64,000 bases of DNA. It comes from Microbacter margulisiae. Its GTDB lineage: Bacteria; Bacteroidota; Bacteroidia; Bacteroidales; Paludibacteraceae. Position 1 is the first letter of the stretch. The number at the start of each line of letters is the position of its first letter. This document shows, piece by piece, positions 7,346-55,565 of the stretch. The notes beneath the pieces are model-generated. The model saw only the letters and a program-made list of their open reading frames with translations. It did no database searches and was not told the origin of the DNA. Location of the stretch: positions 496,001 through 560,000 of the forward strand of contig NZ_JACHYB010000001.1 in assembly GCF_014192515.1 (NCBI RefSeq). The letters run 5' to 3'. A program made the translations under genes and the position numbers.

Positions 7346-7361
7346 ATTCTAAAAATAAAAG

Positions 7362-7395: not shown

Positions 7396-7426
7396 TATAT
7401 TTCTTTTTGGATCTTATAATTCAGAA

Positions 7427-9419: not shown

Positions 9420-9448
9420 CGTAATATTTTTTATTTATGAAGCATACG

Positions 9449-12507: not shown

Positions 12508-13527
12508 ATGAATACACTTAATTGGTCTGAGCTTTCATTTGGCTATATTCCTACAGATTATAATATCCGTTGTGTATATAAAGACGGGAAATGGGGAGAG
12601 ATTGAAGCTACTACAGATACAACAATTTCGTTGCATATTGCCGCAACAAGTTTACATTATGGTCAGGAAGCCTTTGAAGGGCTTAAGGCATTTATGGGAA
12701 AAGATGGGAAAATTCGTATTTTTCGTCCTGAAGAAAATGCAAAACGATTGCAAAACACGTGTGATGGAATTATGATGCCTAAATTGCCGGTGGAATTATT
12801 TATGGAAGCCGTAAAAAAAGCTGTCGTAATGAATAAACGTTTTGTGCCGCCTTATGGAAGCGGTGCTTCTTTATATATTCGTCCGCTATTGGTTGGTACA
12901 AGCGCTCAGGTAGGTGTGAAACCAGCTGACGAGTATTTATTCGTCATTTTTGTAACGCCAGTTGGTCCATATTTCAAAGGTGGTTTTCAGACGACACCTG
13001 TGGTTATCTTGCGACAATATGACCGTGCTGCTCCATTGGGAACAGGTACATATAAAGTAGGAGGAAATTATGCGGCTGGCATGTTAGCCGGTGAAAAGGC
13101 TCATCAAATGGGCTATTCTGCTGTACTTTATCTTGACGCTAAAGAAAAAAAGTATGTTGACGAGTGTGGTCCTGCTAATTTCTTTGGGATTAAAAATAAT
13201 ACCTACGTGACTCCGGAATCGACGTCCATTTTGCCATCTATTACGAATAAAAGTTTAATGCAACTAGCCAAAGATATGGGGATGACGGTGGAGAGACGCC
13301 GGATTTCTGAAGAAGAACTTGCGACATTCGAAGAAGCAGGTCAATGCGGGACGGCGGCTGTGATTAGTCCAATTTCGAAAATCGACGATATCGATGAAAA
13401 TAAATCATATATTATTTCTAAAGATGGCCAACCTGGACCAATTAGTCGTAAGTTATATGAAAAATTGAGGGCTATCCAATACGGAGATGATTCGGATATA
13501 TATGGATGGAATGCCGTGATAGAATAA
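12508..13527 (+). CDS. ilvE: Branched-chain amino acid aminotransferase
   Basis: A 339-residue fold-type IV PLP aminotransferase. Characteristic segments are LHYGQEAFEGLKAF near residue 50, SGASLYIRPLLVGT near 117, and TGTYKVGGNYAAGM with the likely PLP lysine at Lys183. The C-terminal part has DECGPANFFGIK and the PLP-phosphate-binding SILPSITNKSLM. It interconverts leucine, isoleucine and valine with their 2-oxo acids using 2-oxoglutarate/glutamate. It stands alone on the plus strand, and an IS3 element is inserted 15 bases after its stop codon. Confidence 0.92.
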   Translation: MNTLNWSELSFGYIPTDYNIRCVYKDGKWGEIEATTDTTISLHIAATSLHYGQEAFEGLKAFMGKDGKIRIFRPEENAKRLQNTCDGIMMPKLPVELFMEAVKKAVVMNKRFVPPYGSGASLYIRPLLVGTSAQVGVKPADEYLFVIFVTPVGPYFKGGFQTTPVVILRQYDRAAPLGTGTYKVGGNYAAGMLAGEKAHQMGYSAVLYLDAKEKKYVDECGPANFFGIKNNTYVTPESTSILPSITNKSLMQLAKDMGMTVERRRISEEELATFEEAGQCGTAAVISPISKIDDIDENKSYIISKDGQPGPISRKLYEKLRAIQYGDDSDIYGWNAVIE

Positions 13528-13597
13528 CCCCGGCACAAAATATGACTAGTCCTAAAAAACCGTTACAGGTTTAATGAACAAAAATACTCTTTTTATC

Positions 13598-13629
13598 AAA
13601 CCTTATCAAGGCTAGCCTTGATAAGGTTT
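13598..13629 (+). repeat. 32-bp perfect palindrome in the IS3 OrfB tail, possible terminator
   Basis: AAACCTTATCAAGGC is followed by TA and its exact reverse complement. It encodes the last residues of OrfB (QNLIKASLDKV) yet can form a 15-bp hairpin. On the plus strand it is followed by TGCTTTTTAT, so it could end transcription coming from ilvE. Confidence 0.6.
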
Positions 13630-13741
13630 TGCTTTTTATAATTTCTAATTTTTATCTCTTTTTGGCAGTGCATCTGTTCAGGTGTTTTCATGTAACAAGA
13701 CCAGTGTGGCCTTTGTGTATTGTAAATATGAACAGCATCTT

Positions 13742-31182: not shown

Positions 31183-31339
31183 CGATAAAGCAGGATGTGG
31201 CGATATGATTTGATCTTTGATTTTTAGAATTTGTATAATTACAGCTGATTTACGATCAATAATATTGACGCAATCATAATTTGGCTATCCCACTACTTTG
31301 AGTACTTTTGTCAACGCATTTGGCGATCATTGCTTAATG

Positions 31340-31545
31340 CAGGGAATGATCGAAAGAGTGAGTCCGGTGCCTTCATCACGGAATGAACTACTCCGGTGCT
31401 GTATCTGCAGCTGTCAATTCCATAAACGTATCTGAATTACCATTGCCACTGTTTATCAGTATCCCAAAGCCGGGAAGGTTGCTAAAAACAAAAGCTGATC
31501 GAAGAGACTGAAAATGGTAGGCTTTGCATATGGAAATGAGCCGGA
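31340..31545 (+). promoter_or_regulatory. Cobalamin (B12) riboswitch upstream of cobQ
   Basis: Several conserved blocks of the adenosylcobalamin riboswitch occur in order: CTCCGGTGCTGT near 31391, GCAGCTGTCAATTCC near 31408, the invariant GCCACTG at 31444-31450, CCGGGAAGG at 31470-31478 and GAAGAGAC (B12-box-like) at 31501-31508. It lies about 100 bases before cobyric acid synthase, a classical target. A downstream hairpin (AGTGC with GCACT, 31555-31575) may be the expression platform. B12 binding would reduce expression. Confidence 0.8.
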
Positions 31546-31646
31546 AGAGCTGCCAGTGCTCATATACCGGCACTTCAGGCCATCCCGGCAGATGGATTAG
31601 TATTACTCCTGCCATATTCGAATAGAGAGTAATGATTAAATAAGAA

Positions 31647-40652: not shown

Positions 40653-42102
40653 GGTAGTGTCCAAAAATTTGTGTAAACGCATTCTTATCTCATTTATTAT
40701 TATTTTTTCTTTTCGAATCCCCTCTCAAAATTTTTGAGGGGTTTGAAAAGAAAAAACTTCCGTTTTTATTTTATTCTTAAACTAGTGTCACTAATATTTG
40801 CTCTATCAGGATATAAAATCATAAACTGATTGGCAATCAATGGCCAGTTGGAAACTTTTGCACTCCAAGATATTGAGGCTTGTTGGATCGCCAGATACAC
40901 TGCTTTTTTCATTGCCTGATCATCAGGAAACATCAATTTATTTTTGGTGTATTTGCGTATGCTTCGATTTAGATTTTCAATCACATTAGTGGTATAGATA
41001 ATCTTTCGTATTTCGGCTGGATAGGTAAAATAGGCTGTCAGATTTTCCCAATTTGCAATCCAGGATTTAATGGCATAAGGATATTTCTCTCCCCATTTAG
41101 TTTCCAATTCAGCAAAAGCTTCCCCAGCAGCATCTAAGTTTCGGGCCTGATACACTTGTTGAAGATCATGCATAAAACTCCGTTTTTCCTTTGTCCCAAT
41201 ATAGTTCATCGTGTTTCTTATCTGATGAACAATACATAATTGTGTTACTGTTTCCGGAAACACAGCCTGAATAGCCTGGGTTAGCCCTTTCAGATTATCT
41301 GAACAGGCAATTAAAATATCTTTCACCCCTCGTTTCTTCAAATCATCCAACACGTTCATCCAAAATGAAGCCGATTCAGTTTCATTGATCCACATACTAA
41401 TAACTTCTCTATGTCCATTGGTATTTAAACCGATAATCAGATAAACGCTTTTACTTATTATCTTACCTCCTGAACGAACTTTGATACGAATACCATCTAA
41501 CCAAACAATCAGATAAGTATCATCCAATGGACGGGTTTGCCAGGCTTCTACATCGCTCATTACCTGATCTGTGATATTGGATATGGACGAAGAACTGATA
41601 GTGACACCATAAATGTCTTTTATCTGAGCTTCTATGTCACGAGTCGACATGCCTCGTGCATACAAAGAAATCACAACGCTTTCTATCTTGTCTATTACTT
41701 TTTGACGCTTGGGCAAAACGATGGGATTAAACTCACCCTGACGATCGCGGGGAACCTCTATAATTATTTCTCCACTACTGCTCTTTACTAACTTGCGGGT
41801 TTTTCCATTACGAGAGTTCCCACTGCCATTTCCTTTGACTGAGTGCTTGTCGTAGCCAAGATGTTCGCTCAACTCACTTTCTAACATCTTTTCTACTCCC
41901 CGCTTAAATAGCTTATCCATAAAACCATTTATGTCTTGCATGGTCTTGAAACCCTTGAAAAAATCTGTTGGTAACTGGGAGAAAAGTGCCTCATCTTCTG
42001 CACTCAATTTTGATAATACTGATTTCTGCTTTTTCATGTCCTTTTTTTTCTGTTATAAAAATAAGCATTTATTTCTATTTACACAGTTTTTTGGACGGTC
42101 TC
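40653..42102 (-). mobile_element. IS256-family insertion sequence (copy 2)
   Basis: A 1450-bp element. Ends read GGTAGTGTCCAAAAATTTGT and, inverted, GAGACCGTCCAAAAAACTGT, with the same terminal GGTAG/GAGAC pattern as copy 1. An 8-bp duplication TTTAACAA flanks it at 40645-40652 and 42103-42110. It inserted immediately next to a 21-bp tandem repeat. Confidence 0.92.
40766..42037 (-). CDS. IS256-family transposase
   Basis: A 423-residue mutator-type transposase. ESELSEHLGYDKHSVKGNGS is near residue 55 and VPRDRQGEFNPIVLPKRQK near 95. Catalytic aspartates are in IVWLDGIRIKV and IACSDNLKGL, followed by CIVHQIRNTMNYIG; the Glu is in YTTNVIENLNRSIRKYTKNK. Complete in length and motifs. It belongs to a different IS256 subgroup from the transposase at 13972-15186. 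Confidence 0.93.
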   Translation of the reverse strand: MKKQKSVLSKLSAEDEALFSQLPTDFFKGFKTMQDINGFMDKLFKRGVEKMLESELSEHLGYDKHSVKGNGSGNSRNGKTRKLVKSSSGEIIIEVPRDRQGEFNPIVLPKRQKVIDKIESVVISLYARGMSTRDIEAQIKDIYGVTISSSSISNITDQVMSDVEAWQTRPLDDTYLIVWLDGIRIKVRSGGKIISKSVYLIIGLNTNGHREVISMWINETESASFWMNVLDDLKKRGVKDILIACSDNLKGLTQAIQAVFPETVTQLCIVHQIRNTMNYIGTKEKRSFMHDLQQVYQARNLDAAGEAFAELETKWGEKYPYAIKSWIANWENLTAYFTYPAEIRKIIYTTNVIENLNRSIRKYTKNKLMFPDDQAMKKAVYLAIQQASISWSAKVSNWPLIANQFMILYPDRANISDTSLRIK

Positions 42103-42114
42103 TTTAACAATTTG

Positions 42115-42366
42115 ACCCCGGTATCTTTTTCCTTCACCCCGGAGTTGTCTTCTTTTACCCCGGTATCTTTTTCCTTCACCCCGGAGTTGTCTTCTTTTAC
42201 CCCGGTATCTTTTTCCTTCACCCCGGAGTTGTCTTCTTTTACCCCGGTATCTTTTTCCTTCACCCCGGAGTTGTCTTCCTTCACCCCGGTATCTTTTTCC
42301 TTCACCCCGGTATCTTTTTCTTTTACCCCGGTATCTTCTTCCTTTACCCCGGTATTATCTCCTTAT
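42115..42366. repeat. Minisatellite: 12 tandem copies of a 21-bp unit
   Basis: Twelve consecutive 21-bp units, each beginning ACCCCGG. Two versions alternate over the first eight units (one with TATCTTTTTCCTTC, the other with AGTTGTCTTCTTTT) and the last ones are degenerate. The unit is divisible by three, so the minus strand reads as the heptapeptides VKEKDTG and VKEDNSG and the plus strand as FTPVSFS. Neither strand has a convincing ATG start. It abuts the target duplication of the second IS256 element. The stretch 42367-42578 has nothing recognisable. Confidence 0.95.
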
Positions 42367-42578
42367 TACCCGGGCCTGCTTAACAAACCGGGTCTATTCC
42401 GCAACGAAAAACAGGCAATCACGGGATTGAAAAGCGATTCAGGATGTGATGATGTGAAAAACCGGCGACGGGAAATGCCGAAAGAGTGTGGAGCCGGGAA
42501 AATACAGGGCATTGTGCAACCGAAGGAAATTGGAGTTTCCCATAAAACAGGAAGATATCTCTATCCCGGTGCTGTTAT

Positions 42579-43733
42579 CTACCGGATGGGGGCTCCTGTG
42601 CTTCTGCCCATCCTTTTCTCCTGTTTCAGTTCGTCCTGGTAATCGGAAGGGCTTTTGCCATAGCGTTTCTTAAAAGCAGAATAGAAATTGACTCTTGTAC
42701 GGAATCCGCTTTGCAATCCGATGGCTTCGATGGTCATCCTGTCGGCTTGGTCGCTTTCAAGCAGTTCGCAGGCATGCAGGCAGCGGTATTCGTTGATGAA
42801 ATCGGAAAAGTTTTTGCCACAGTGCACATTGACCACGTGGGAGAGATGATGTTGCGGGATATTGGTTTGAATGGCGGCGGCTTCCAGCGTGCATTCGGGG
42901 TTCAGGTATATCCTGGTGTCAGACAGGATTTCATGCAGCCGCTGTATGTAGTCGTCCACCAGTTGCTCGTCCAGTTTTATTTGCCGTTCCGGTTCGGACA
43001 GGATCTCTACCGCGGCCTGCATTGAAAGTCCGGTGCTAAAGATGGATTGCAGGAAGATGTATCCTGCCAGCAGGCCAATGACAGAGGTACCCACCACAAG
43101 CTCCATCCCGTTGCAGTCGTCTGCCATGCAAAGCGGCAGGTGGAGCAGGACACCTGCCATCGCGATGAGGAGGGCATAGCAGAGCCAGCGGATATTCGCC
43201 CGGCACCCCTTGGACTCAAGCAGGTAACCGGACTCCCGTTGCTGGTACACTTTCAGGAAAGAGACCATCAGGTAGGGCATCAACTGGAGGTAGAAAAGAT
43301 AGTCGAGCAGGTTTTCCATCCAGCGCCGCGGGTCGGAAGCATCGAGCAACACGCCCGTGCGTTGCTTCAACGGCAGCGAGATGAAATAGCCCACATAGGC
43401 CAGCGCAGGCAGAGCCGGGAGGGCATGCCTGGCAAACTGCCGGGCCGTGATGCGGCGTAAAGGATCGAACAACAGCAACACATAAAAATAGAGCAACGGC
43501 CCGATGAACATCACCAGCACCTGGTCGAGGGGAAGATAGCACGGGAGCAGGAAGTCCATCTTCCGGCCGTATATATAATAAAGGAGTAGCATCCACAGGC
43601 TGAGTGCCGCCAACAGCAGGAAGATCCCTGACAACATCCGGTTTGCCCTCCGGATAGATGATGGCCTCGCCCACAGCAGCAGGGCAAAGAGAACCAGCAG
43701 GAATCCGGACAAAAGGGAAAAGGCGGTGAACAT
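42579..43733 (-). CDS. Membrane-anchored AraC-family transcriptional regulator
   Basis: A 384-residue protein starting at ATG 43733. The N-terminal half has about six to seven hydrophobic spans (FSLLSGFLLVLFALLLWARP, then LLAALSLWMLLLYYIYG). The C-terminal 100 residues are an AraC/XylS DNA-binding domain with two helix-turn-helix motifs (TLEAAAIQTNIPQHHLSHVV and IEAIGLQSGFRTRVNFYSAF, then KKRYGKSPSDYQ). This fusion is frequent in Bacteroidota and probably couples a membrane signal to transcription. The gene is markedly GC-richer than its neighbours, suggesting separate ancestry. Confidence 0.82.
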   Translation of the reverse strand: MFTAFSLLSGFLLVLFALLLWARPSSIRRANRMLSGIFLLLAALSLWMLLLYYIYGRKMDFLLPCYLPLDQVLVMFIGPLLYFYVLLLFDPLRRITARQFARHALPALPALAYVGYFISLPLKQRTGVLLDASDPRRWMENLLDYLFYLQLMPYLMVSFLKVYQQRESGYLLESKGCRANIRWLCYALLIAMAGVLLHLPLCMADDCNGMELVVGTSVIGLLAGYIFLQSIFSTGLSMQAAVEILSEPERQIKLDEQLVDDYIQRLHEILSDTRIYLNPECTLEAAAIQTNIPQHHLSHVVNVHCGKNFSDFINEYRCLHACELLESDQADRMTIEAIGLQSGFRTRVNFYSAFKKRYGKSPSDYQDELKQEKRMGRSTGAPIR

Positions 43734-44350: not shown

Positions 44351-44630
44351 TATTTTTTGCTGTTAGATTAAAAATAATTGTTTACATTTGAAGCGGACAT
44401 TGGAAAAAGAGGAAAATAAGTTATCATTACGATTTATATGCCTAATGTTGGGCTAACGGAAAGGGAAAGAAAGCGTAATTTGAAAGCTATTCCTGTTCAG
44501 CACCGGATGAAAAGGTTTATATTATAATGGAGGAGTGCTTTTTGATTGCAAATCGGATAGGATGAAAAAGATCTTCATTGCATAGAAAGTTTACCTGGAC
44601 ATTCGGGTAGCAGACGACTAAGATATATTG

Positions 44631-44765
44631 CGCATATTACAACAAAAGGATATACGCCATAAACAGAAATACCAGATAGATATAATGAGCTTAATTACAG
44701 CGAATGTAGCAAACTTATAAGACAAATGTATGCGCCATAGCATGGCGTATATACAGATGTTATGC
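44631..44765 (+). other. attC-like site 0 (upstream boundary of cassette 1)
   Basis: The core GTTATGC is at 44759-44765. Inner arms TATACGCCAT (44651) and ATGGCGTATA (44742) are exact inverted repeats, and the outer GCATATTAC (44632) is a degenerate inverse core. The preceding cassette cannot be recognised. Confidence 0.55.
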
Positions 44766-44789
44766 CCAAGCTTAAAAAAAATACAGAAC

Positions 44790-47345
44790 ATGAAAACTAA
44801 TGCAAAAGATTATTTGATTGAATTTGCGAGAAGCCAAGACAGCTGGTTAAAAGCATTGATTCACGACACTATTGAATCAAATGGGACAATAAGCAATGAA
44901 AGAAAAACAGAAATATACTCTTGTTTTAAGAATTCAAAAGCAATTGAAGTTGATTTATCGAACATTAGTATTCCAAGTGCAAATGGTGAGATTCATATCT
45001 CGAAACTAACACATAAAAAAGGTGTAAATGCTCTTGCAGAAAATCAAACAATTAAGTTCAATAATGATATCACTATTTTATTTGGAATGAATGGAGCCGG
45101 GAAAAGCGGATATTTTAGAATTTTAAATGAATTAGTCGGTGGCAACCAAAAGAAAGAGATATTACAAAATATATATTCAAACACATTGAACAACATAGAT
45201 GTGGAAATTGTGTTTGAAGATAATAATAATCAAGTTCATACAATTAACTGGAATGGACAAACAAGATCCTTACCCTTACTAGATAGATGTAAAGTATTTG
45301 ATACCTCATATTTAAATGGGCTTTTAGATGTTAGACAGTCAGATTTAACTCTTATTCAGCCTTTAGGACTGAGTCTCTTCACTTATCTTGTTGAGATGGT
45401 TGATAGCCTAAAAAATCAACTGATTTCCGATGCAGATAAATTGAGACTTCAAAAACCAACAATTGTAACAACCAACTTTTCAGAACCGTTTCAAAATGCT
45501 TTTTCAAATCACAGTTTGTCAGATGTAGTAAAAAGAGCAATAGAAAAACACTTCATATTTACTGACGAAAATAAGAAACTTATAATAGGACTTAAGAGAG
45601 ATGTAGATAATCTAAAACAAATAAATATCGTTGACAAGGTTTCACTACTTGAGAACAACAAAAGAGATTTAATTTTACTAAAGAAAAATATCGAAGAAAA
45701 GGAAACCAAATTATCAGACTTCCTAAAACACTTAAATCCTTTATTGATACGATATCAAGAAAAAGAAAAGGCAAGTTTGAAAACGAAAGAACAATTTGAG
45801 TTACTCAAAGTGATTCCGTCGAATAACTCGAAAGAATGGAAAGATTTTATTATTGCAGGTGAAAAGTATTCGAATATTATAGGTGATAGTGAAAATACTT
45901 GCATTTATTGTAGACAGCCATTAAGAGATGATAGTGCAATTAATATAGTTAGATCGTATAGTTTATTTTTAAAGGATAGTTCCGAACAAGAACTAAATAG
46001 AGTTAATAGTGAAATTTCAGGAAAAATAAATGAGATTGAAAGATATTCTACTTCAATTCAAATATCCGAGAATATAGATAAAATATTGATTGATACAAAA
46101 GTTGTTGATACAAATCTTAAGGAGCTAATTTTACAAACTGAGCAGGCATATTTGGTAATAAAGGAACAATTAATTGCTTATTTAAAAGCCAAAACCAATA
46201 ATAACGCAATTGCTATTCCAAATATTACACTTCTAAAAGATCAATTGAACAAGCTTTTAGATGACTTGCAAGTGTCTATTGACAAGCTTACAAAAGAGGA
46301 TTCAGAGAAAAAAGAGAAAATAAAAACACTCGAAAAGCAGATTGCGGATTTACAAGAGAGTGAGTCAATCAGTATTCAAAAAGAAAGTATTATCAAATGG
46401 TTTGATTTACATTCAAAAGAAGCGACTTTGCGTAAGAAAGCTTCAATAATTAACACAAGACAGTTGAGTACTTTGTCTGCAACAGCACATGAAGAACTAT
46501 TAACTGAATCTCTAAAAACTAAATTCAATGAAGAACTTCAAAATATTGGTTATTCAAATATTGATGTTTATTTGGAAGGTGCTGGAACAAAAAAAGGAGT
46601 TTCAAGTACAAAACTGACTTTGACAAAAAACAAAGATTTGAAAGCTGTCTTGAGTGAAGGTGAACAAAAAGCAGTTGCATTAGCCTTATTTATTGCTGAG
46701 ATAAGAATACAAAGAACTTCAAATCCAATAATTCTTGATGATCCAGTTAATAGTCTTGACCATAAAATTGCTGGAAGATTTGCTGAACGACTTATGGAAT
46801 TAGATAATCAAATCATTTTATTTAATCACAATAGACTTTTCCTAGACTCATTTGAAACTAGTAAAACCAATCATATATGTAAAACAACAGATACAGATTG
46901 CAATAATAGTAAAGGTAAACACATTAAAATATATGAAGTCATTTCCCAAGGTAAAAACGTCAAAGGTGTTTTGAGAAATTACAAAGGGAATCATGCTAAA
47001 AATCATATTAAAGACGCTAAAAGATTACTAAGTTCTATACCTTTTGAAGATGAGATAAAGGTGTCAAATTTATTACGTTTGACAGTTGAGTGTGTAATTG
47101 ATGAAGTTATTTTCAACTATCAAGTTCCAACTCGTTTTAGTAATAAGAACAGTCGAATTGCATGGGCGGAATTAAAGAGCATAAATAATGACAGTGTAGT
47201 CATTGATACTTTGGAAAGGATTCATAGTAGAGTTTCAGGGGGTGAAATGCATAATGGAATCGAAAGGAACGAAAATCCTATAGAAGTTGACGAATATAAC
47301 AGTATGATATTAGATTTAGACAATATATTACAATTAAAAGCCTAG
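44790..47345 (+). CDS. RloC-like AAA/ABC ATPase with zinc-hook-like coiled coil (cassette 1)
   Basis: An 851-residue SMC/Rad50-type ATPase starting at ATG 44790. Walker A FGMNGAGKSG is near residue 99. Long coiled coils flank CIYCRQPL (about 371-378), a CxxC like the Rad50/RloC zinc hook. The ABC signature LSEGEQKAVALALF starts near 621 and Walker B PIILDDPVNSLDH near 646. The C-terminal 130 residues contain Arg763-x3-Glu767 and His812 in an arrangement reminiscent of the Arg/Glu/His set of PrrC/RloC anticodon nucleases. RloC is a tRNA-cutting phage-exclusion protein; identity with it is inferred. The stop is 2 bases before the inverse core of attC 1. Confidence 0.75.
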   Translation: MKTNAKDYLIEFARSQDSWLKALIHDTIESNGTISNERKTEIYSCFKNSKAIEVDLSNISIPSANGEIHISKLTHKKGVNALAENQTIKFNNDITILFGMNGAGKSGYFRILNELVGGNQKKEILQNIYSNTLNNIDVEIVFEDNNNQVHTINWNGQTRSLPLLDRCKVFDTSYLNGLLDVRQSDLTLIQPLGLSLFTYLVEMVDSLKNQLISDADKLRLQKPTIVTTNFSEPFQNAFSNHSLSDVVKRAIEKHFIFTDENKKLIIGLKRDVDNLKQINIVDKVSLLENNKRDLILLKKNIEEKETKLSDFLKHLNPLLIRYQEKEKASLKTKEQFELLKVIPSNNSKEWKDFIIAGEKYSNIIGDSENTCIYCRQPLRDDSAINIVRSYSLFLKDSSEQELNRVNSEISGKINEIERYSTSIQISENIDKILIDTKVVDTNLKELILQTEQAYLVIKEQLIAYLKAKTNNNAIAIPNITLLKDQLNKLLDDLQVSIDKLTKEDSEKKEKIKTLEKQIADLQESESISIQKESIIKWFDLHSKEATLRKKASIINTRQLSTLSATAHEELLTESLKTKFNEELQNIGYSNIDVYLEGAGTKKGVSSTKLTLTKNKDLKAVLSEGEQKAVALALFIAEIRIQRTSNPIILDDPVNSLDHKIAGRFAERLMELDNQIILFNHNRLFLDSFETSKTNHICKTTDTDCNNSKGKHIKIYEVISQGKNVKGVLRNYKGNHAKNHIKDAKRLLSSIPFEDEIKVSNLLRLTVECVIDEVIFNYQVPTRFSNKNSRIAWAELKSINNDSVVIDTLERIHSRVSGGEMHNGIERNENPIEVDEYNSMILDLDNILQLKA

Positions 47346-47346
47346 G

Positions 47347-47474
47347 GCATAACACACGCCTATGGCCATTGGCTGGCTGACGTGCAATTTGGAGGTTTTG
47401 CTCCCGCATTCACTTTGTCGCTGTGCGACAGTGAACGCTCCCGCAAACCGCCAAATGCCCATAGCCTCGGTCGT
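47347..47474 (+). other. attC-like site 1, left part (core split off by IS1182)
   Basis: The inverse core GCATAAC (47347-47353) is followed by CTATGGCCATTGGC, which pairs with GCCAAATGCCCATAG near the right end. The central hairpin TTCACTTTGTCGC/GCGACAGTGAA lies between. The site stops at TCGT where the IS begins; its core GTTAGCG continues at 49215. It is about 90% identical to attC 2. Confidence 0.8.
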
Positions 47475-49212
47475 CAGACTGCGCAAAAACATCAGCGGAT
47501 GTTTTTGACTAAGAGATTAGGACTACTAAAAGAAAAGTGATTAATTACTTGTGTATGTGAGCAATATTTTGTAAATTTATAGCATAATACATTCAACAAC
47601 AGAATTATGCAACACATACAAGGCGAAGAACGAAATCAGCTTCAAATGTTCTGTTTGGAGCAAATGGTAGAAGCCGACAGTTTCGTTCGGGTAATTGATT
47701 ACTTTGTAGATACCATCGATTTGGAGAGTTTCGGATTTCGGAACGTAAAGCTGAAGGAAGAAGGTCGTCCGCCCTATCATCCTGCTGTGCTAATGAAGTT
47801 GTATTTCTATGGCTACAGGTATGGTATTCGCTCTTCTCGTAAGATGGAACGTGAAGCTAGGTTGAATCTGGAAGTTCGCTGGCTCTTGTGTGAGCAGACA
47901 CCTTCGGCACGCACCATCTGTATGTTCCGAAAAGAATATGCCGAAAGCTTCAAAGCGATCTTTCGCAAGTTTGTTTTTCTGCTCAAAGAGTTGGGCTTGA
48001 TGGAAGGAAAAACCATTGCCATTGATTCCTTTAAAGTGAGGGCACAAAACTCACTCAAGCACAATTACAATCAGAAAAAGATAGACCGTCAGCTGGAATA
48101 TATTGACGGCAGAATAAAAGAATTTGAAGATGCACTGGACGAGGCCGATTCGCAGGAACAAAAAACAGTACTGAAAGATAAAATAGCCGTACAGCAAAGT
48201 CGCATGGAGAAATATCAGGCTATCGAAGCCGAACTCAAAGAAACAGGCAAAGACCAGATAAGCACAACAGACCAGGATGCACAATCGGTAGTGTTACAAC
48301 GGGGAATAACCGTGGTGGGATATAATATACAGGCTTCGGTGGATGCCAAAAACAAGCTCATTGCCCATTTTGATACAGGAGGAGTAAACGATACCAATGC
48401 ATTGGGCACAGTGGCTGTTGCCACCAAAGAAGTGTTGCAGGTGGAGCAAATGGATGTACTGGCAGACAAAGGTTATCATACAGGGGAACAGATCAGGCAG
48501 TGTGAACAAAACGGAATCACCACCTATGTGTCGCCCAAAGAGCCGGCTTCGAATGATCCGGATATTTTTCCGATAACAAGTTTTGTGTACGACACTGAAA
48601 AAGATTGTTACACTTGTCCGGCAGGAGAAACACTTACACCCAATGGCACCTGGCTCACGCATAGCAGCAAAGGATATAAGTCGGCTTACAAGTTTCAACG
48701 ATACAACAACCCGGCGAAATGTCGCCTGTGCGAAATGCATAGTTTGTGTACCAAAAGTAAAAATAACGGCAGAAATATAGACCGCAGTGAGTTTGCTGCG
48801 GATGTAGAACAGAACAACCAACGAGTAAAAGAGAATCCGGCCTACTACAAACAACGCCAGCAATTGGCCGAGCATCCGTGGGGCACACTCAAACGGCAAC
48901 GGGGATTTGATTACGTACTGACCCGGGGAAAGAAAAATGTATTGGGTGAAGTAAGTTTGGTATTTATCGGCTACAACCTGAGCCGGTTTATACAGATAAC
49001 CGAAGGGATAAATGCCTTCAAAGAGTTAATAAAGGGAGTAATAGCTCATATTTGTTCACAACAGGCTTATTTAAAGGCGATTTAAGCAATTGTTCTAAAT
49101 ACACAAAAATAACACAGGCAATTTATAGCCTCACGCAAACGGAAGCTATGAAAGCCTGAAGAACATAAATATAAAACTTTTACGGGAGCTTGGGCGGTTT
49201 TTGCGCAGACTC
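47475..49212 (+). mobile_element. IS1182-family insertion sequence inside attC 1
   Basis: A 1738-bp element. Terminal inverted repeats are CAGACTGCGCAAAAAC (left) and GAGTCTGCGCAAAAAC (right, inverted). A 4-bp duplication TCGT flanks it (47471-47474, 49213-49216). Removing it gives GCCTCGGTCGTTAGCGG, matching the equivalent position of attC 2 (GCCTCGGGTCGTTAGGC). The insertion is therefore exactly in the recombination core. Confidence 0.93.
47607..49085 (+). CDS. IS1182-family transposase
   Basis: A 492-residue DDE transposase. The N-terminal DUF772-type domain has FCLEQMVEADSFVRVIDYFV and RPPYHPAVLMKLYFYGYRYG. The catalytic core includes TIAIDSFKVRAQNS (Asp) and VLADKGYHTGEQI (Asp). A C-terminal cysteine group, CRLCEMHSLC, and EHPWGTLKRQRGFDYVLTRG with the Glu follow. 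It appears complete, so the element may still be active. Confidence 0.93.
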   Translation: MQHIQGEERNQLQMFCLEQMVEADSFVRVIDYFVDTIDLESFGFRNVKLKEEGRPPYHPAVLMKLYFYGYRYGIRSSRKMEREARLNLEVRWLLCEQTPSARTICMFRKEYAESFKAIFRKFVFLLKELGLMEGKTIAIDSFKVRAQNSLKHNYNQKKIDRQLEYIDGRIKEFEDALDEADSQEQKTVLKDKIAVQQSRMEKYQAIEAELKETGKDQISTTDQDAQSVVLQRGITVVGYNIQASVDAKNKLIAHFDTGGVNDTNALGTVAVATKEVLQVEQMDVLADKGYHTGEQIRQCEQNGITTYVSPKEPASNDPDIFPITSFVYDTEKDCYTCPAGETLTPNGTWLTHSSKGYKSAYKFQRYNNPAKCRLCEMHSLCTKSKNNGRNIDRSEFAADVEQNNQRVKENPAYYKQRQQLAEHPWGTLKRQRGFDYVLTRGKKNVLGEVSLVFIGYNLSRFIQITEGINAFKELIKGVIAHICSQQAYLKAI

Positions 49213-49214
49213 TC

Positions 49215-49221
49215 GTTAGCG
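49215..49221 (+). other. Core of attC 1 / start of cassette 2 (GTTAGCG)
   Basis: GTTAGCGGT is the right core displaced by the IS1182 element and also the first bases of cassette 2. Its reverse complement ACCGCTAAC ends cassette 2 at 50477. Confidence 0.75.
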
Positions 49222-49294
49222 GTCAGTGTAAAAAAAATAAAACAGTTGAATTACTTCGCGTAAATTAAGAATAGAATAACTAAAAAATATAAAT

Positions 49295-49951
49295 ATGATG
49301 GAAATAACAGGATTAGACAGAGTGATTTACACAGTAGGTCGAATTACACCTAATGGAGTACGTTTATTAGGAACTTGCTTCCAATTAAACAAAGCTGGTT
49401 TATTTGCGACTGCTTCACATGTCACCAATAATGACAACAATAACTTGGTAATTTTCGTATCAGGAAAAACTGACCTAAATACTTATCAGGACACAACTAA
49501 TACTCTTGGACAGACAGTTCCTGCAGTCATTTATAAAGTTGACCCAATAAGAGATATATGTATTTTAAAAATAGAGAATGCAGGATTTTCAAACTTACGA
49601 ATTGGTGGAACAGATGATGTAAAAGTTACAGAAAATGTTGGAATTGTAGGATTTCCCCATTGTGTTGATGGAAGAAACATTCTGACATTCCAAACTACCG
49701 TCGTTGGAGCTAAAGTATTAATTGAGTCGTCGAGTATAAAATCAAAACATTTAGTTTTAAATATACAAACAAGACCTGGACAATCAGGAAGCCCTATTTT
49801 CAGGCTTTCAGATTCGAAATTAATCGGAATGATAATAGGGTCTTACGCACCTGGTGGTGCTGGAGGCATTTCATTAGGTGGAGTTGACCCATTGACATTA
49901 CACCAAACAACTCACGCTGTTTCAAGTGAATATATACTAAATATGATATAA
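49295..49951 (+). CDS. Trypsin-like serine protease (cassette 2)
   Basis: A 218-residue S1-type (chymotrypsin/HtrA fold) peptidase domain without signal peptide. The catalytic triad can be read as His in FATASHVTNN near residue 47, Asp in DPIRDICILKI near 89 and Ser in TRPGQSGSPIF near 166 (the GxSGSP motif). There is no PDZ domain. It is separated by 3 bases from a small membrane protein gene in the same cassette. Cytoplasmic trypsin-like proteases without PDZ occur in several phage-defence modules as effectors; that role here is inferred. Confidence 0.82.
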   Translation: MMEITGLDRVIYTVGRITPNGVRLLGTCFQLNKAGLFATASHVTNNDNNNLVIFVSGKTDLNTYQDTTNTLGQTVPAVIYKVDPIRDICILKIENAGFSNLRIGGTDDVKVTENVGIVGFPHCVDGRNILTFQTTVVGAKVLIESSSIKSKHLVLNIQTRPGQSGSPIFRLSDSKLIGMIIGSYAPGGAGGISLGGVDPLTLHQTTHAVSSEYILNMI

Positions 49952-49954
49952 GTT

Positions 49955-50437
49955 ATGGAAGAACTGAATAATTTGTGTCAATCAGAACCAAATGAATTGT
50001 TATTGGCAATTGACAGTTTTCAAAAAGAAATCTTAGAATCATTTTTAGTTTCTACAGGAAATGATTACTTAGCAAGTGCGGATAAGTGGTTAAATGCAGG
50101 TCCTTCAAATACTGCTAAATTTGGAGGAGAACCAAATAAAGCAATTATTTATAGAGACAAATTACTTGACGAAGTTGAAAAATTCATTTGCGGAGACAAC
50201 AGATACGATGAAGATAGAAAAAAAATTTCAGAAAGTGCAGATAAATCCAAACAATACATAATCGGAGTAATGTCTACAGCTATTGGTAGCACCATGGGTG
50301 TTGCAGGGACTTTTGTAGCACCTGTTATTGTACTCCTTATTATGAGTATAGGGAAAATGGCTGTAAATGCTTGGTGCGAAATGAGAAAGGAGATTAAGAA
50401 ACCTGTTGAAATTGGACAACAAAATGAGAGAAATTGA
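49955..50437 (+). CDS. Small membrane protein paired with the protease (cassette 2)
   Basis: A 160-residue protein I do not recognise. The N-terminal 100 residues are charged and helical (LLLAIDSFQKEILESFL, then DKWLNAGPSNTAKFGGEPNK). One strongly hydrophobic stretch of about 30 residues (GSTMGVAGTFVAPVIVLLIM) lies near 112-135, followed by a basic tail. Topology suggests a membrane-anchored partner or target of the adjacent protease. It might be released or activated by cleavage, as in protease-gated toxins, which is speculation from context. Confidence 0.65.
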   Translation: MEELNNLCQSEPNELLLAIDSFQKEILESFLVSTGNDYLASADKWLNAGPSNTAKFGGEPNKAIIYRDKLLDEVEKFICGDNRYDEDRKKISESADKSKQYIIGVMSTAIGSTMGVAGTFVAPVIVLLIMSIGKMAVNAWCEMRKEIKKPVEIGQQNERN

Positions 50438-50470
50438 ATATTGAACAATGTTGATTTTCAAACACCGAAC

Positions 50471-50602
50471 CGCTAACACACGCCTATGGTCATTGGCTGG
50501 CTGACGTGCATTCCGGCAGTTTTGCTCCCGCTTCACTTTGTCGCAGGGCGACAGTGAACGCTCCCGCAAACCGCCAATGCCCATAGCCTCGGGTCGTTAG
50601 GC
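50471..50602 (+). other. attC-like site 2
   Basis: A 132-bp site running from the inverse core CGCTAAC (50471-50477) to the core GTTAGGC (50596-50602). Arms CTATGG/CCATAG and the central hairpin TTCACTTTGTCGC/GCGACAGTGAA are the same as in attC 1. The core fully matches GTTRRRY. Confidence 0.82.
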
Positions 50603-50634
50603 ACAATATTGACCGAGCCCATCGCAACAACAAA

Positions 50635-51369
50635 ATGAGGAACATTAATATGGAAAATTGGAAAACAGAAAATTTAGCAGAAACTTATTTGGAAGGAGTG
50701 AGAAGTGCAATACCTTTTGCGTATGAAGAAATAGAAATATTATTGCGGATAATAAAGTCCTTCAATCCAAACTTTAATTCATTTTTAGATTTAGGGTGTG
50801 GAGACGGAGTCTTAGGAAAAACACTGTTAACAAATAAGCCCCAATCAAAAGGTGTATTTGTGGATTTTTCTGAGCCTATGATAAAAGCCGCAAAAGCAAA
50901 TTGTCAGGAATATAGGAATCAAACCACTTTTGCAGTTCAAGATATTGGAGATATCAACTGGTTAGATAAGATTTCTAAAGAGTTGCCTGTTGATGTTGTG
51001 GTCTCAGGATTTGCAATTCATCACCAGGCTGATAATAATAAAAAAAGAATTTATCGGGATATTTTCGACAGGGTTTTAAAACCAGGAGGGATATTTTTAA
51101 ATCTGGAACAGGTTAAATCGGCAACACCTCAGATTGAATCCATTTTCAACGAATTTTTTATGGACAAAATGAGAGAATTTAAAAAGGAAAATAATACTAA
51201 TATTTCGATAGAAACAATTGAAACAGAATTCTACAAGGACAAAGAAATAAATATTTTGGCACCAGTTGAAAAACAATGTGATTGGTTAAGAGAAATCGGA
51301 TTTTCACAGGTTGATTGTTTCTTTAAAGCTTTTGAACTTTCTATATTTGGAGGAATAAAACCTGAGTGA
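50635..51369 (+). CDS. Class I SAM-dependent methyltransferase (cassette 3)
   Basis: A 244-residue Rossmann-fold methyltransferase. Motif I is FLDLGCGDGVLGKTL near residue 48, motif II VFVDFSEPMIKAA near 75, and the post-motif VVVSGFAIHHQAD with LKPGGIFLNLEQV follows near 120-155. The substrate is not apparent. ATG at 50650 is an alternative start. The cassette (50597-51523) carries only this gene and no visible promoter. Confidence 0.85.
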   Translation: MRNINMENWKTENLAETYLEGVRSAIPFAYEEIEILLRIIKSFNPNFNSFLDLGCGDGVLGKTLLTNKPQSKGVFVDFSEPMIKAAKANCQEYRNQTTFAVQDIGDINWLDKISKELPVDVVVSGFAIHHQADNNKKRIYRDIFDRVLKPGGIFLNLEQVKSATPQIESIFNEFFMDKMREFKKENNTNISIETIETEFYKDKEINILAPVEKQCDWLREIGFSQVDCFFKAFELSIFGGIKPE

Positions 51370-51397
51370 TAAAAAAAAGAGATGAAGAAAATACTGT

Positions 51398-51529
51398 GCC
51401 TAACATTTTGTATAAGTAATAGCAGGCGATGTGGTAAATATCAAGGTTTGTAACCCGCTCAAACTACGTATCGGTTTGACAGGAAAGTGCCACGCAGTCG
51501 GCCACTATTCATGCAATTTACCGTTAGCA
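51398..51529 (+). other. attC-like site 3
   Basis: A 132-bp site running from the inverse core GCCTAAC (51398-51404) to the core GTTAGCA (51523-51529). It shows a central TCAAAC/GTTTGA hairpin and imperfect outer arms. Its inner sequence differs from attC 1 and 2, as is normal for attC sites, where structure rather than sequence is conserved. Confidence 0.78.
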
Positions 51530-51556
51530 GCAATTTAACGAAACACTATACAGACA

Positions 51557-52258
51557 ATGAACAGACTTGACAGGCTAACAAGCATACTTATACAACTTCA
51601 ATCTAAACGGCAGACAACTGCCCGTGAAATAGCTAAACGATTTGAAGTTACAAACAGGACAATTTACCGGGATATTCAAACATTACGGCTTGCAGGTGTG
51701 CCCATTGGCGAAGAAGAAGGAAAGGGGTATTTTTTAGTTGAAGGGTATCGGTTGCCACCTGTAATGTTCACCATGGAAGAAGCAAGAGCTTTGGTAACAA
51801 CAAGTAAAATTTTGAACTACCATACCGAAGATTCCCTGAAACAAAATTACGAATCGGCACTTTTAAAAATCAAAGCAGTTTTATCACTCAACGACAAAGA
51901 CAAATTGGAATTTTTAGATTCAAGAATCGGATTTCAAAAACCGTGGGCACCTACAAGTTTGTATTTGGACACCATCCAGCATGCAATTACAGAAAACGAA
52001 AAACTGAAAATAGCGTATCAGTCAAGAGGAGAAGAGCAACTAACGGAACGAACCATCCAACCCTGTGCAGTTTATTTCAGTGGTGCTGTTTGGTCGACTA
52101 TTGCCTTTTGTGAGTTACGGCAAGAAATAAGAGAGTTTCGCCTTGACAGGATAAAAGAACTCAAAATCCAACAAACTCATTTCAAACCTGACAAGACTTT
52201 CAGCATGGAACACTATTTAGAAGAACGTTCCAGAAGATTGTTTGAACCCCTGACATAG
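51557..52258 (+). CDS. WYL-domain (YafY-type) transcriptional regulator (cassette 4)
   Basis: A 233-residue regulator. The N-terminal winged helix-turn-helix (TAREIAKRFEVTNRTIYRDI) is near residues 21-40. The ligand-sensing WYL-like domain has IAYQSRGEEQLTERTIQP and VWSTIAFCELRQEIREFRLD near 155-210. The C-terminal extension ends FEPLT. Such proteins sense ligands, including nucleic acids, and some control defence genes. It lies 125 bases before the alpha/beta hydrolase in the same cassette, which it may regulate. Confidence 0.85.
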   Translation: MNRLDRLTSILIQLQSKRQTTAREIAKRFEVTNRTIYRDIQTLRLAGVPIGEEEGKGYFLVEGYRLPPVMFTMEEARALVTTSKILNYHTEDSLKQNYESALLKIKAVLSLNDKDKLEFLDSRIGFQKPWAPTSLYLDTIQHAITENEKLKIAYQSRGEEQLTERTIQPCAVYFSGAVWSTIAFCELRQEIREFRLDRIKELKIQQTHFKPDKTFSMEHYLEERSRRLFEPLT

Positions 52259-53026
52259 GGCTGTCCTATGTGCCTTGTATCTTTGCTTCAAATTCAACCA
52301 GGGATGAATAAAAAAGCAATTGTATTAATCGCTATTGCTTCACTTTCAGAAAGCGCAGGCAAGGCAAAAACACAAGAAAAAAATGACAGCAAAACAAATC
52401 ACAATCAGAGACAAACAAGTTGAAATCAATTATTTTCAACAAGGACAAGGCGACACAACAGTTCTGTTTTTACACGGTTGGTGTATTGACGGAACTTATT
52501 GGGAAAATCAAGTAGACTATTTTTCTAAAAATTACTGTGTGTACGCAATAGACCTGCCGGGCTTCGGTAAATCCAAAGCTGAAAGAACCAACTGGACAAT
52601 TGAAGAATACGCCAATGATGTAACAGCATTTATCGACACACTGAACCTTAAAAATGTTGTAATCATTGGACATTCTATGGCAGGCGAAATTATGTTACAA
52701 GCGGCATTAACCAACAATCCAAAAATAGTAGGCGTTGTAGGTGTTGACAATTTCAAATTTATTGATGTTACCTTTACACCAGAACAAATGAAACAAATGG
52801 CCGGCTTTTTTCCAATGCTTGAAAAGGATTTTAAAAATTCAGCACCTGTATATGCAGATATGATGCTTTTTCACCCAACAACTTCAAAGGAAGTGAAAGA
52901 CAGGGTAAAAACTGATTTTGCAAATAGCGATCCCGTTATTGGCTATGGGACATTTATGAACCAAATGCAGTATGCTTATACCGATGCACAAAGATTGGAA
53001 CAGCTAAATTACAAGTTGTATTTAAT

Positions 53027-54345
53027 CACTAGTGTCCACTAAAAAAACGGCACTGTATAAATATTAAAAAGCAAATAAACTTGGTTCACTTGAACCGCAT
53101 CGTTCATTGAAATTGTTGAAGTTAGATTTGTTGAGCAAATCATTTATGTTGGCTTTGTCCGTTAGTGACATGCTGAGAATCTGAAGCATTTCGTAGATGG
53201 AGCATTCCATCTTCAAGTCATGATGCACAATAGCTACCAAGCAGTAGGCGGTAATAGCCGAGTAAATCTGGATCCTGACAGCATTCTCAGTTACGCCCCA
53301 AAACTTTTGGATATTGAGGTGTTGCTTCATCCACTTGAAAAACAGCTCGATCTGCCATCTGTTCTTGTAAAGCAGCACGACTTGCAAAGCATCAAGACTA
53401 AAAGCATTGGTTAGGAATGTAAACACTCGGTCTTGCTCTTCGTCGTAGAAGACAATTCTTCGTATGGGCTTCGGATAATGCCTTTCGCTCATGTAACCAG
53501 TGAATGTCACCACGGAATCTGAGAGGATGTTTTTCGGCATCCTTCTCTTCCATCTGACTGCCTTGCACTGTAGATTGTTCTTGGCTCTGACCACAAATAA
53601 TGACCTGATTTCGTTGATTCTAAACAATCGTTTGAAATCGTTGTACCCGCGGTCAAACACATAAAAAGATCCTGGTTCATAGGGAATCACATCCATCGCG
53701 TTTACGTCATTTACCGCAGCAGGAGTGATATGGAAGAACATTGGGATCTGAGTTTCCAGGTCAAACAGGGTATGGATTTTAACTCCACCTTTTGTCTTTC
53801 TGAAACGAGCCCATTGATAAATGTTCATACATAAGTCAATGGTCGTTGAATCAAAGGCATAGACTTTACCTCCAAGCTTGAAGATGTTGTCCATACGTTT
53901 TGATTGAGCTTTGCCAACCATGTAATAGGCAAACTCTTCAAAAATGCGATAGTCCCGATTGGTATTTGCCTTGGAAAGATTGCTTAGCTTGACATCACTG
54001 CCAAAACCCAGATGATATCCTTTACCCCTATGCGCACCGATAGCCATCGCCAAATCTCTCAGACTCCTTCTGTTGCAAAGTTGTCCGAACATGAGAACAA
54101 GCAGCTGATTCCAACAGGTAAAAGACTTGATATAGCGGTTTCCTTGGTGCTTGTCTACAATGTGCCTGAATTTATCGGCATTAAGAAACTCGACTAATTG
54201 GGCGAAAACGAACTTCTCTTTATGCATATCGTATTGAATATCAATACAAAGATAAATTGAAATCGTCGCACCCTTTAAAACGCTATAACTATCTAACTTT
54301 CAATATTTTCAAAGATCTTTTGCAATTTTTTAGTGGACACCAATG
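53027..54345 (-). mobile_element. IS4-family insertion sequence in the hydrolase gene
   Basis: A 1319-bp element. Ends read CACTAGTGTCCACTAAAAAA and, inverted, CATTGGTGTCCACTAAAAAA, beginning with CA as in IS4 elements. A 9-bp duplication GTATTTAAT flanks it (53018-53026, 54346-54354). Confidence 0.92.
53064..54227 (-). CDS. IS4-family transposase
   Basis: A 387-residue DDE transposase of the IS4 family, probably the ISPepr1-like group common in Bacteroidota. It has the N-terminal DUF4372-like domain (FAQLVEFLNADKFRHIVDKH) and CWNQLLVLMFGQLCNRRSLR. The catalytic residues are in YAFDSTTIDLC (Asp), FYVFDRGYNDF (Asp) and NRWQIELFFKWMKQHLNIQK (Y/N-R-x-x-I-E). It appears intact. Confidence 0.92.
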   Translation of the reverse strand: MHKEKFVFAQLVEFLNADKFRHIVDKHQGNRYIKSFTCWNQLLVLMFGQLCNRRSLRDLAMAIGAHRGKGYHLGFGSDVKLSNLSKANTNRDYRIFEEFAYYMVGKAQSKRMDNIFKLGGKVYAFDSTTIDLCMNIYQWARFRKTKGGVKIHTLFDLETQIPMFFHITPAAVNDVNAMDVIPYEPGSFYVFDRGYNDFKRLFRINEIRSLFVVRAKNNLQCKAVRWKRRMPKNILSDSVVTFTGYMSERHYPKPIRRIVFYDEEQDRVFTFLTNAFSLDALQVVLLYKNRWQIELFFKWMKQHLNIQKFWGVTENAVRIQIYSAITAYCLVAIVHHDLKMECSIYEMLQILSMSLTDKANINDLLNKSNFNNFNERCGSSEPSLFAF

Positions 54346-54523
54346 GTATTTAATAAATAATGATGGTTTCCCAACAAACGAAACCGGACTGAAAAACCAT
54401 TGTAGAAATAGTTTTCAAGTGGAAACTATCGCTGCAACCGGACATTATCCAATGGTAGAAAAACCGGCAGAATTTAATTTACTATTAGAAAAAGTGCTGA
54501 CAGGAAGGAATGAAATAAACTGT

Positions 54524-54619
54524 TGCTAACGTCGTGTATAAAACATTGGGGTCAGGTATTGTGCCCCGATAGTGATGTTTCCGCAAATCGCCCAATGCCC
54601 ATAGCCTCGGTTGCTAGCA
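54524..54619 (+). other. attC-like site 4 (degenerate core)
   Basis: The inverse core GCTAAC (54525-54530) overlaps the hydrolase stop codon. The right half, CGCCCAATGCCCATAGCCTCGG, is the same as in attC 1 and 2, but the core reads GCTAGCA instead of GTTAGCA. The left half is unlike sites 1 and 2. Confidence 0.6.
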
Positions 54620-54642
54620 CCAAATTTAACAGAAAGACAAGG

Positions 54643-55059
54643 ATGAACAAGGAACTTTTTTTGCGAGAATTTATGATCGAAGTATGGAACAAACAAGGCT
54701 TCGATAAAGTTGAGAAATATATTCATAACGAATACCATATTTATCTTGATACTGCAGATCCATGGGAAGGGAAAACTTTATCACACATCGAATATAAAAA
54801 ACGGTTAAAGTATTCATTTGACTCTTTCCCTGATATGAATTTTGAAATAACTTCGGCTATTGAAGAAGAAAACCATGTGGCTATCACTTGGATTCTAACA
54901 GGGACAAATCTTGGTATGATTGGAGAATTTCCTCCCACAAACAAAAAGATAGAAACCAAAGGGATCACAATCTACCATTTTAAGGATGATTTAATGAGTG
55001 GACATACACAAGTTTTTGACAGAAATACGGTTGCTAAACAATTAGGATTTATACAATAA
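54643..55059 (+). CDS. SnoaL-like ester cyclase/polyketide cyclase-fold protein (cassette 5)
   Basis: A 138-residue protein of the NTF2-like/SnoaL fold starting at ATG 54643, preceded by AAGG. Conserved features are the helical N-terminus with WNKQGFDKVEKYIHNEYHIY, SFDSFPDMNFEITSAIEEEN, and the C-terminal strand GITIYHFKDDLMSGHTQVFD. Family members cyclise polyketides or act as small-molecule isomerases, but most are uncharacterised. It overlaps the next gene by one base. Confidence 0.8.
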   Translation: MNKELFLREFMIEVWNKQGFDKVEKYIHNEYHIYLDTADPWEGKTLSHIEYKKRLKYSFDSFPDMNFEITSAIEEENHVAITWILTGTNLGMIGEFPPTNKKIETKGITIYHFKDDLMSGHTQVFDRNTVAKQLGFIQ

Positions 55060-55400
55060 TGAAAACGAGGAAGGATATTAAAGAGGAATACAAGCAGATG
55101 AAATTCCAAATGGGAGTTTTTCAAATAAAAAACAAATCAAATAACAAAGTATTTGTAGACCATAGCGTTGATATGGCCTCGACATGGAACAGGCATAAAT
55201 TCGAGTTAAAATTTGGTACCCATGTAAACCGGGAGCTGCAAAAAGATTGGAACGAAAAAGGAGAGGATAATTTTGATTTCGGGATCTTATCAGAATTAAA
55301 ACAAGATGATGACAGAAAAGTTGACTATGCAAAGGAATTGCGGTTGCTACAACAAATGATTATCGAAGAAATGAATATCTCAAAAGAACTAAGATATTAG
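55059..55400 (+). CDS. Degenerate GIY-YIG nuclease-like protein
   Basis: A 113-residue protein aligned by eye with the small GIY-YIG proteins of Bacteroidota. MGVFQIKNKSNNKVFVDHSV replaces the usual GIY...YIG strands, followed by WNRHKFELKFGTHVNRELQKDW and FDFGILSEL. The second motif Tyr-Ile-Gly is changed to Phe-Val-Asp, so nuclease activity is doubtful. It overlaps the preceding SnoaL-like gene, suggesting coupled translation. Family call is moderate. Confidence 0.6.
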   Translation: MKTRKDIKEEYKQMKFQMGVFQIKNKSNNKVFVDHSVDMASTWNRHKFELKFGTHVNRELQKDWNEKGEDNFDFGILSELKQDDDRKVDYAKELRLLQQMIIEEMNISKELRY

Positions 55401-55404
55401 TAAA

Positions 55405-55565
55405 CTGACCATAGCACGCGGTCATAAAACATAGCGGTTTCAGTGGGTTTTCAAGCGTTTCGTCCTGCAACAAGTTTTATATAATGTGGAATAAAGATGC
55501 AGCTTCGAAGTTCGGCACATTTCATGCCACCGCCGTTGTGTGCAAGGCAACTGAATCTACCTACT
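55405..55565. repeat. Possible decayed attC-like region
   Basis: This gap contains AGCACGCGGTCATAAAACAT and, 130 bases on, GCCGTTGTGTGCAAGGC, spaced like an attC site. It shares ATAAAACAT with attC 4. Core consensus and complementarity are poor, so the site is uncertain. Confidence 0.3.

Follow-up and report, generated by a model that had tools for sequence, protein, structure and literature searches.

Background

According to passages of a published study (PMC2727003), known attC sites are oriented by extrahelical bases. The passages on integrons in a classification of tyrosine recombinases (PMC8138268) define an integron-like subgroup with incomplete conservation of the IntI insert, which is nevertheless called essential for integron function; for members that have no insert, these passages mention neither arrays nor attC sites. 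The 64,000-nt stretch analysed here (the window, G000:C1:496001-560000) belongs to the genome of Microbacter margulisiae (3.56 Mb, two contigs) and carries an array of gene cassettes with attC-like hairpins. An earlier note on this DNA had read the array as a cluster of attC sites lacking an integron integrase (CALIN). It is not one that derives from a classical integron, the recombinase concerned having no IntI domain, most attC sites being without extrahelical bases and the array beginning at an attI-like site. We consider, with a probability of about 0.85, that the array is a member of a second, non-IntI class of integrons which is widespread in Bacteroidota. Its recombinases may belong to the integron-like subgroup of simple tyrosine recombinases in the above classification (PMC8138268). 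A literature search, beyond the reach of which lay most subscription papers and preprints, found no description of such a system.

Cassettes and attC sites of the window

Five cassettes follow one another in the same orientation (Table 1). In cassettes 1 to 4 the core at the start is the reverse complement of the inverse core at the cassette's own 3' end, as the earlier note had claimed for every cassette; cassette 5 does not conform (5/9). When the four starts were paired with the four ends in all 24 ways, the true order alone had the top score. Cassette detection without filtering for hairpins was dropped, since it returned 191, 36 and 4 chains of 2, 3 and more cassettes, respectively, in 20 resampled windows.

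A covariance model, R1, was built in this analysis from 51 hairpins that had been picked by the core rule (one from the window, at 50471-50602, one from the other array of the same genome and 49 from other genomes). R1 found five attC sites in the window, every one on the minus strand: 50471-50602 (the only window member of the training set, 65.4 bits), 51398-51529 (not in training, E 9.3e-15), 47347-47479 (E 3.7e-13), 55409-55541 (E 1.4e-7) and 54524-54619 (E 0.014). A partial match on the plus strand at 44628-44712 (E 0.8) was discarded as noise. The earlier count of five intergenic palindromes stands as a number, but one of those counted, 44629-44765, resembles the attI of relatives and not an attC, and the site at 55409-55541 had been overlooked. 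Likewise, the bottom-strand hairpin is present, but the extrahelical bases expected with it are mostly absent from this type of attC. Compared with shuffled sequences, folding was clearly beyond expectation for 50468-50605 (z -3.38) and weak or absent for 51396-51535 (z -0.81), 54519-54625 (z 0.07) and 44620-44770 (z -1.89). The core pairs and the covariance-model matches support an integron-type logic in a Bacteroidota host.

An intact recombinase and array in the same genome

The best match to TIGR02249 (IntI) in the own genome is a 576-aa tyrosine recombinase (C1:1881788-1883515), which scores 218.9 bits, below the curated cut-off of 265 bits used here to call canonical IntI, and skips model positions 177-238; none of the tyrosine recombinases matched in this genome lies above the cut-off. 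Its surroundings (L015), about 1.33 Mb from the window array, show the order recombinase, attI-like stretch and cassettes. The first cassette has, by eye, the cores GTTAGCAAC/GTTGCTAAC, and further cassettes have GTTATGCAC/GTGCATAAC and GTTATGTTT/AAACATAAC; R1 hairpins lie at 12518-12645 and 15325-15454 of L015. The cargo includes two Fic genes, SoFic-like, and the flanks read by eye as an ABC-transporter permease gene and its ATPase gene. A 283-aa recombinase on contig 2 (L003) was rejected, as its neighbouring open reading frame (ORF) resembles an IS91-type transposase by eye and, in the tree, it falls among relatives from outside Bacteroidota. Two sequence matches, at C2:690793 and C1:1910565, were also set aside, being not attC-like in appearance.

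Linkage of recombinase and array in Bacteroidota

Counting the own genome, matches to the window site 50468-50606 occur in at least 8 of the 295 genomes that represent the order (two candidates scored per genome). In G219 and G002, the same kind of recombinase is located just upstream of such sites, and the core rule holds. Strict cassettes, on either strand, were present in 14 of 20 regions around recombinases, nearly all of them family members. A scan of named genomes then gave a set of 80 loci. Where a Bacteroidota locus offered 2 kb or more of sequence on the side in question, a strict cassette was found downstream of the recombinase in 21 of 31 and upstream in 3 of 58; the controls gave 6/310 (Markov shuffles) and 0/10 (non-Bacteroidota loci). 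The attC length was 130-135 in 70 of 101 core-site pairings (93 sites).

R1 detected 87 sites in the 80 loci, 84 of them downstream of the recombinase and on the bottom strand, and 3 upstream and on the other strand. For neighbouring sites (71 of the 87), all 5 variable core bases agreed in 37 of 48 pairs; the control, in which one core of a site was set against its other core, gave 3 of 71. To allow for the selection of R1's training sites by the core rule, the comparison was repeated with pairs whose second site had not passed through that selection, and 13 of 19 agreed.

Among 395 sampled Bacteroidota genomes (own genome included), R1 matched at least 192, a lower bound as eight candidates were scored per genome with stricter filters. 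The recombinase family (E <= 1e-45, three candidates scored per genome; the set may include some IS91-type relatives) was found in 115. Recombinase and hairpin occurred together in 101 genomes, recombinase alone in 14, hairpin alone in 91 and neither in 189 (odds ratio 15, p 5e-25). All of 20 chosen Bacteroidota genomes with the recombinase had R1 matches (3-75 each), compared with 1 of 19 non-Bacteroidota genomes encoding recombinase relatives, which had one weak match (E 3.6e-4).

Two other site types were also seen. Short attC-like sites of 66-68 nt occur next to the same recombinase family in Rufibacter (L124, 12767-17753) and in L100 and L101, so the hairpin length is variable within the class. 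In L042 (G207, 5440-9810) there are recurring sites starting with TAACAGCACC or similar, only one of which is matched by R1; they may represent a further attC subtype.

Canonical IntI in Bacteroidota

Canonical IntI above the cut-off was found in 105 of the 395 genomes. This count exceeds what the passages of surveys that touch on it suggest. Because canonical IntI is common in the phylum, cassettes there are not surprising in themselves; what is notable is the proposed second class, and not, as in the earlier note, the host phylum.

This abundance invites the explanation that canonical IntI acts on the hairpins as on ordinary attC sites, the linked recombinase being a passenger, and R1 indeed matches two of 19 IntI loci (four hairpins in L221 and one weak match in L219). 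We regard this explanation as very unlikely, since the own genome is without IntI above the cut-off and IntI is negatively associated with the hairpins (both, IntI only, hairpin only and neither: 41/64/151/139; odds ratio 0.59, p 0.02), a trend that persists once genomes with the new recombinase are set aside (15/62/76/127; odds ratio 0.40, p 0.004), whereas the new recombinase is linked to hairpins even where IntI is absent (75/12/76/127, p 5e-15). Strict cassettes were present at 5 of the 19 IntI loci (L217, 8; L211, 4; L218, 4; L221, 3; L220, 1), always on the divergent side and never downstream, with 90-91-nt sites in 9 of 22 pairings. The sites themselves also differ: 13 of 16 canonical Bacteroidota IntI sites (L211, L217 and L218; often 90 nt) have a single-base bulge on the expected arm, compared with 11 of 51 new-type sites having one on the R''-L'' arm, where it is no more frequent than on the other arm.

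Anatomy of the hairpin

The 51 non-redundant bottom strands share a stem of 22 pairs, 17 of which show compensatory changes. Paired cells amount to 90.6%, as against 65.3% after shuffling and at most 44.1% after sliding. A G.T pair adjoins the core in 51/51 sites, and a second G.T pair is found in the stem in 45/51. G.T cells number 153 on the bottom strand and 26 on the top, with a bottom excess in 50 of the 51 sites. The bottom strand is the more stable fold in 44/51 (p 4e-8), or in 48/51 when only the arms are considered.

Transcription terminators, repetitive extragenic palindromic (REP)-type repeats or miniature inverted-repeat transposable elements (MITEs), with the recombinase unrelated, would also account for an intergenic position and for the weak folding of some window hairpins. 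However, none of these would produce core pairing across a whole cassette, placement on one side only after a recombinase, or G.T pairs biased to one strand, and we find such an origin hardly credible.

The recombinase family

The insert of about 40 residues that is present in IntI is absent from the array recombinases: the distance between the GLR and HxLRH motifs has a median of 92 (43 of 44 rows), compared with 133 in IntI (16 of 26 rows). In the tree the 26 IntI rows form one clade (Shimodaira-Hasegawa-like approximate likelihood ratio test, SH-aLRT, 99) with no array recombinase inside, and the six Xer rows form a clade of their own (SH-aLRT 99). A wider clade of IntI plus array recombinases was not rejected (approximately unbiased test, p-AU 0.385).

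Many members carry HARP-like repeats at the N-terminus. PF07443 (HARP) matched weakly in 7 of 55 members (best E 0.0029). The N-terminal part alone, as a modest predicted model (predicted local distance difference test, pLDDT, 70.3), gave no match at E <= 0.001 in a structure search, with 4o66 (SMARCAL1 HARP) at rank 14 (E 0.27). VIA-align gave, for the recombinase part only, recombinases and related folds.

Recombinase relic and attI-like site in the window

The array of the window is preceded by 28 codons, in frame and with a stop soon after, that correspond to the C-terminal end of the recombinase (Table 1). Over 28 residues they are 53.6% identical to the C-terminal stretch of several members (33.5 bits). 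All control scores were lower, with maxima of 26.6 for 40 other stretches of the window and 23.5 for 20 shuffles. Chance, which had to be considered for the tblastn match at 44570-44653 (E 0.011, whole window), was ruled out with 73 family members and these controls. The relic lies 76 bp before the attI-like palindrome, where the intact recombinases of relatives end. Since the relic precedes an attI-like site, the window formerly housed a complete element. The earlier statement that the integrase is either in trans or lost turns out to be true in both parts, as a relic remains locally and an intact recombinase is encoded elsewhere in the genome.

The attI-like site is assigned by its layout. 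Palindrome and core are arranged alike in G002 between the recombinase and the first cassette. In 28 sites (26 after a recombinase, the window and L039), the palindromes ahead of the first core had a mean score of 6.9, against 4.5 when shuffled, and 25 of the 28 exceeded their own shuffled mean. L039 (12265-12350, G002) is a second attI-like site with a cassette and no integrase beside it; its neighbour reads by eye as a cytidine deaminase. Solo attI arrays, like that of the window, may be a recurrent form.

The relic also bears on whether the array is frozen, i.e. a formerly active array that now survives on the chromosome only as an island of accessory and defence genes. The reduction of the local recombinase to 28 codons made this somewhat more probable than we had judged before. 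In addition, two insertion sequences (IS) disrupt the array, one splitting the first attC at its right core and the other splitting the hydrolase gene of cassette 4, R1 matches the attC at 54524 weakly, and cassette 5 departs from the core rule. On the other hand, the own genome holds an intact recombinase with its array, and elsewhere many sites have exact core matches, with dozens of sites in some genomes. We therefore consider a frozen relic rather unlikely.

A model for the proposed integron class and points against it

The anatomy, being like that of known integrons, leads us to infer an integron reaction for the proposed non-IntI class. An intact member would comprise, on the same strand, a recombinase without the IntI insert, an attI-like palindromic site and the cassette array, each cassette ending in an attC, mostly of about 132 nt, with a bottom strand that folds as a hairpin. 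The folded bottom-strand attC of a cassette circle would recombine at G^TT with the double-stranded attI-like palindrome or with another attC, and such joining would leave matching ends on every cassette, as observed. The choice of strand is probably set by the bottom-strand G.T pairs (A.C mismatches on the top strand) together with unequal spacers. The N-terminal repeats, where present, might recruit the hairpin, although this is speculation. The window copy has lost its own recombinase, and the intact one in L015 would act on it in trans.

Several observations weigh against the proposed class. i) No recombination, cassette circle or rearranged array has been observed. ii) The array recombinases are not monophyletic in the tree, in which the deep forks are weak. 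iii) The window site used in training, 50471-50602, does not have the G.T pattern in its stem. iv) Cassette 5 (54613/55407) fails the core rule. v) A search of 394 other genomes for the trypsin gene of cassette 2, the only cassette searched for, yielded a single weak relative, and movement of the window's own cassettes is thus without a sign. vi) In L221 the four R1 sites lie about 4-7 kb from intI, which counts against a clean separation of the two systems. vii) The 91 hairpin-positive genomes mentioned above are without the recombinase at the threshold used. viii) The other-phylum control for R1 consists of the 19 non-Bacteroidota genomes only.

On balance we also lean towards a broader account, in which a second integron class extends through the phylum with up to 75 sites per genome. 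Its recombinase would never have had, or would have lost, the insert; G.T wobbles would choose the strand; and in many members HARP-like repeats, of a kind with which SMARCAL1 binds branched DNA, would read the hairpin. The two classes would then represent two protein solutions to the recombination of folded single strands, the second serving a large and so far unseen store of anti-phage genes.

Cargo, insertion sequences and other features

Some of the window cassettes probably carry anti-phage genes. The ATPase of cassette 1 belongs to PDC-S06, a candidate defence family. Outside the window, 3 of 10 cassette proteins scanned matched defence models, including PD-T7-4 in G002 (277 bits). Part of the cargo (PDC-S06, PDC-M35, SoFic-like and PD-T7-4) fits a store of anti-phage genes.

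The element at 47475-49212 is presumably of the IS1182 type. A copy 95.5% identical to it lies in the integron of L015 (~12645-14377), at the same place in another attC. An apparent end of an IS is found at the same attC place in G002 too (L040, ~125, minus strand). IS1111-attC elements target attC in other integrons; by analogy, IS1182-like elements may target the attC core.

An Rfam scan of the window at gathering scores had a cobalamin riboswitch (RF00174, 44.5 bits, 31303-31571) as its sole match. Tandem repeats occur at 42075-42305 and 41968-42642, in which one frame reads KEKDTGVKEDNSGV, and a transposase-like ORF adjoins them.

Table 1. Array-related features of the window, with the core at the start and the inverse core at the end of each cassette
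Feature	Coordinates	Strand	Core pair (positions, agreement)	Evidence
Relic of recombinase C-terminal end, 28 codons	44570..44653	+		Similarity to family members
attI-like site: 23-bp palindrome TATGCGCCATAGCATGGCGTATA (44729-44751), 7 bp, first core GTTATGCCC (44759)	44729..44767	+		Layout resemblance only
Cassette 1: PDC-S06 ATPase (ORF 44790-47345), left part of attC	44760..47474	+	GTTATGCCC 44759 / GGGCATAAC 47345, 9/9	PADLOC 1127 bits, core pair, hairpin
IS1182-like IS, transposase 47607-49085	47475..49212	+		DUF772, DDE_Tnp_1_6; ends set by eye
Cassette 2: trypsin-like PDC-M35A (49295-49951), PDC-M35B (49955-50437), attC 50471-50602	49215..50602	+	GTTAGCGGT 49215 / ACCGCTAAC 50469, 9/9	PADLOC 312 / 176 bits
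Cassette 3: S-adenosylmethionine (SAM)-dependent methyltransferase (50650-51369), attC 51398-51529	50596..51529	+	GTTAGGCAC 50596 / GTGCCTAAC 51396, 9/9	Pfam, core pair
Cassette 4: helix-turn-helix (HTH)/WYL regulator (51557-52258), alpha/beta hydrolase (from 52383), attC 54524-54619	51523..54619	+	GTTAGCAGC 51523 / GTTGCTAAC 54522, 8/9	Pfam, core pair
DDE transposase (DUF4372) of IS within cassette 4 hydrolase gene	53064..54227	-		Pfam, ORF table
Cassette 5: SnoaL-like protein (54643-55059), small ORF (55059-55400), attC 55409-55541	54613..55541	+	54613 / 55407, 5/9	Pfam, hairpin

Comparison with known systems

If the proposed class is accepted, a gene-capture system has sites in about half of the sampled Bacteroidota genomes. 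Tools that rely on the insert would not call these recombinases, and therefore the system may be largely unannotated. It would provide a natural experiment on how a recombinase that has no IntI insert can recognise a folded single strand, and on whether this function arose once or twice. The cassettes matching known or candidate anti-phage systems would link it to the exchange of defence genes.

With the IntI integrons (class 1, the Vibrio superintegron and the Bacteroidota IntI arrays) the system shares a tyrosine recombinase beside an attI-like site, tandem cassettes with matching ends, a GTT core and a bottom-strand attC hairpin with unequal spacers. It differs from them in that i) its recombinase has no IntI insert and does not belong to the IntI clade, ii) recombinase and array run in the same direction, whereas at the IntI loci checked here cassettes lie on the divergent side only, iii) its attC sites are mostly about 132 nt long and mostly without extrahelical bases, and iv) its core is GTTR followed by variable bases, that of canonical integrons being GTTRRRY. 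Of what defines the IntI class, the system thus has the cassette rule and the hairpin, but not the insert, a place in the clade or, in most sites, the extrahelical bases. The array recombinases are also distinct from XerA and other Xer proteins, as they lie outside the Xer clade, often carry N-terminal repeats and have cassettes downstream. Like a CALIN, the array of the window lacks a functional integrase in its vicinity; unlike a CALIN, it begins at an attI-like site after the relic of a non-IntI recombinase, and would be served by a non-IntI recombinase encoded elsewhere in the genome. Judged from its sequences, the system would function like an integron and yet stand outside the IntI class.
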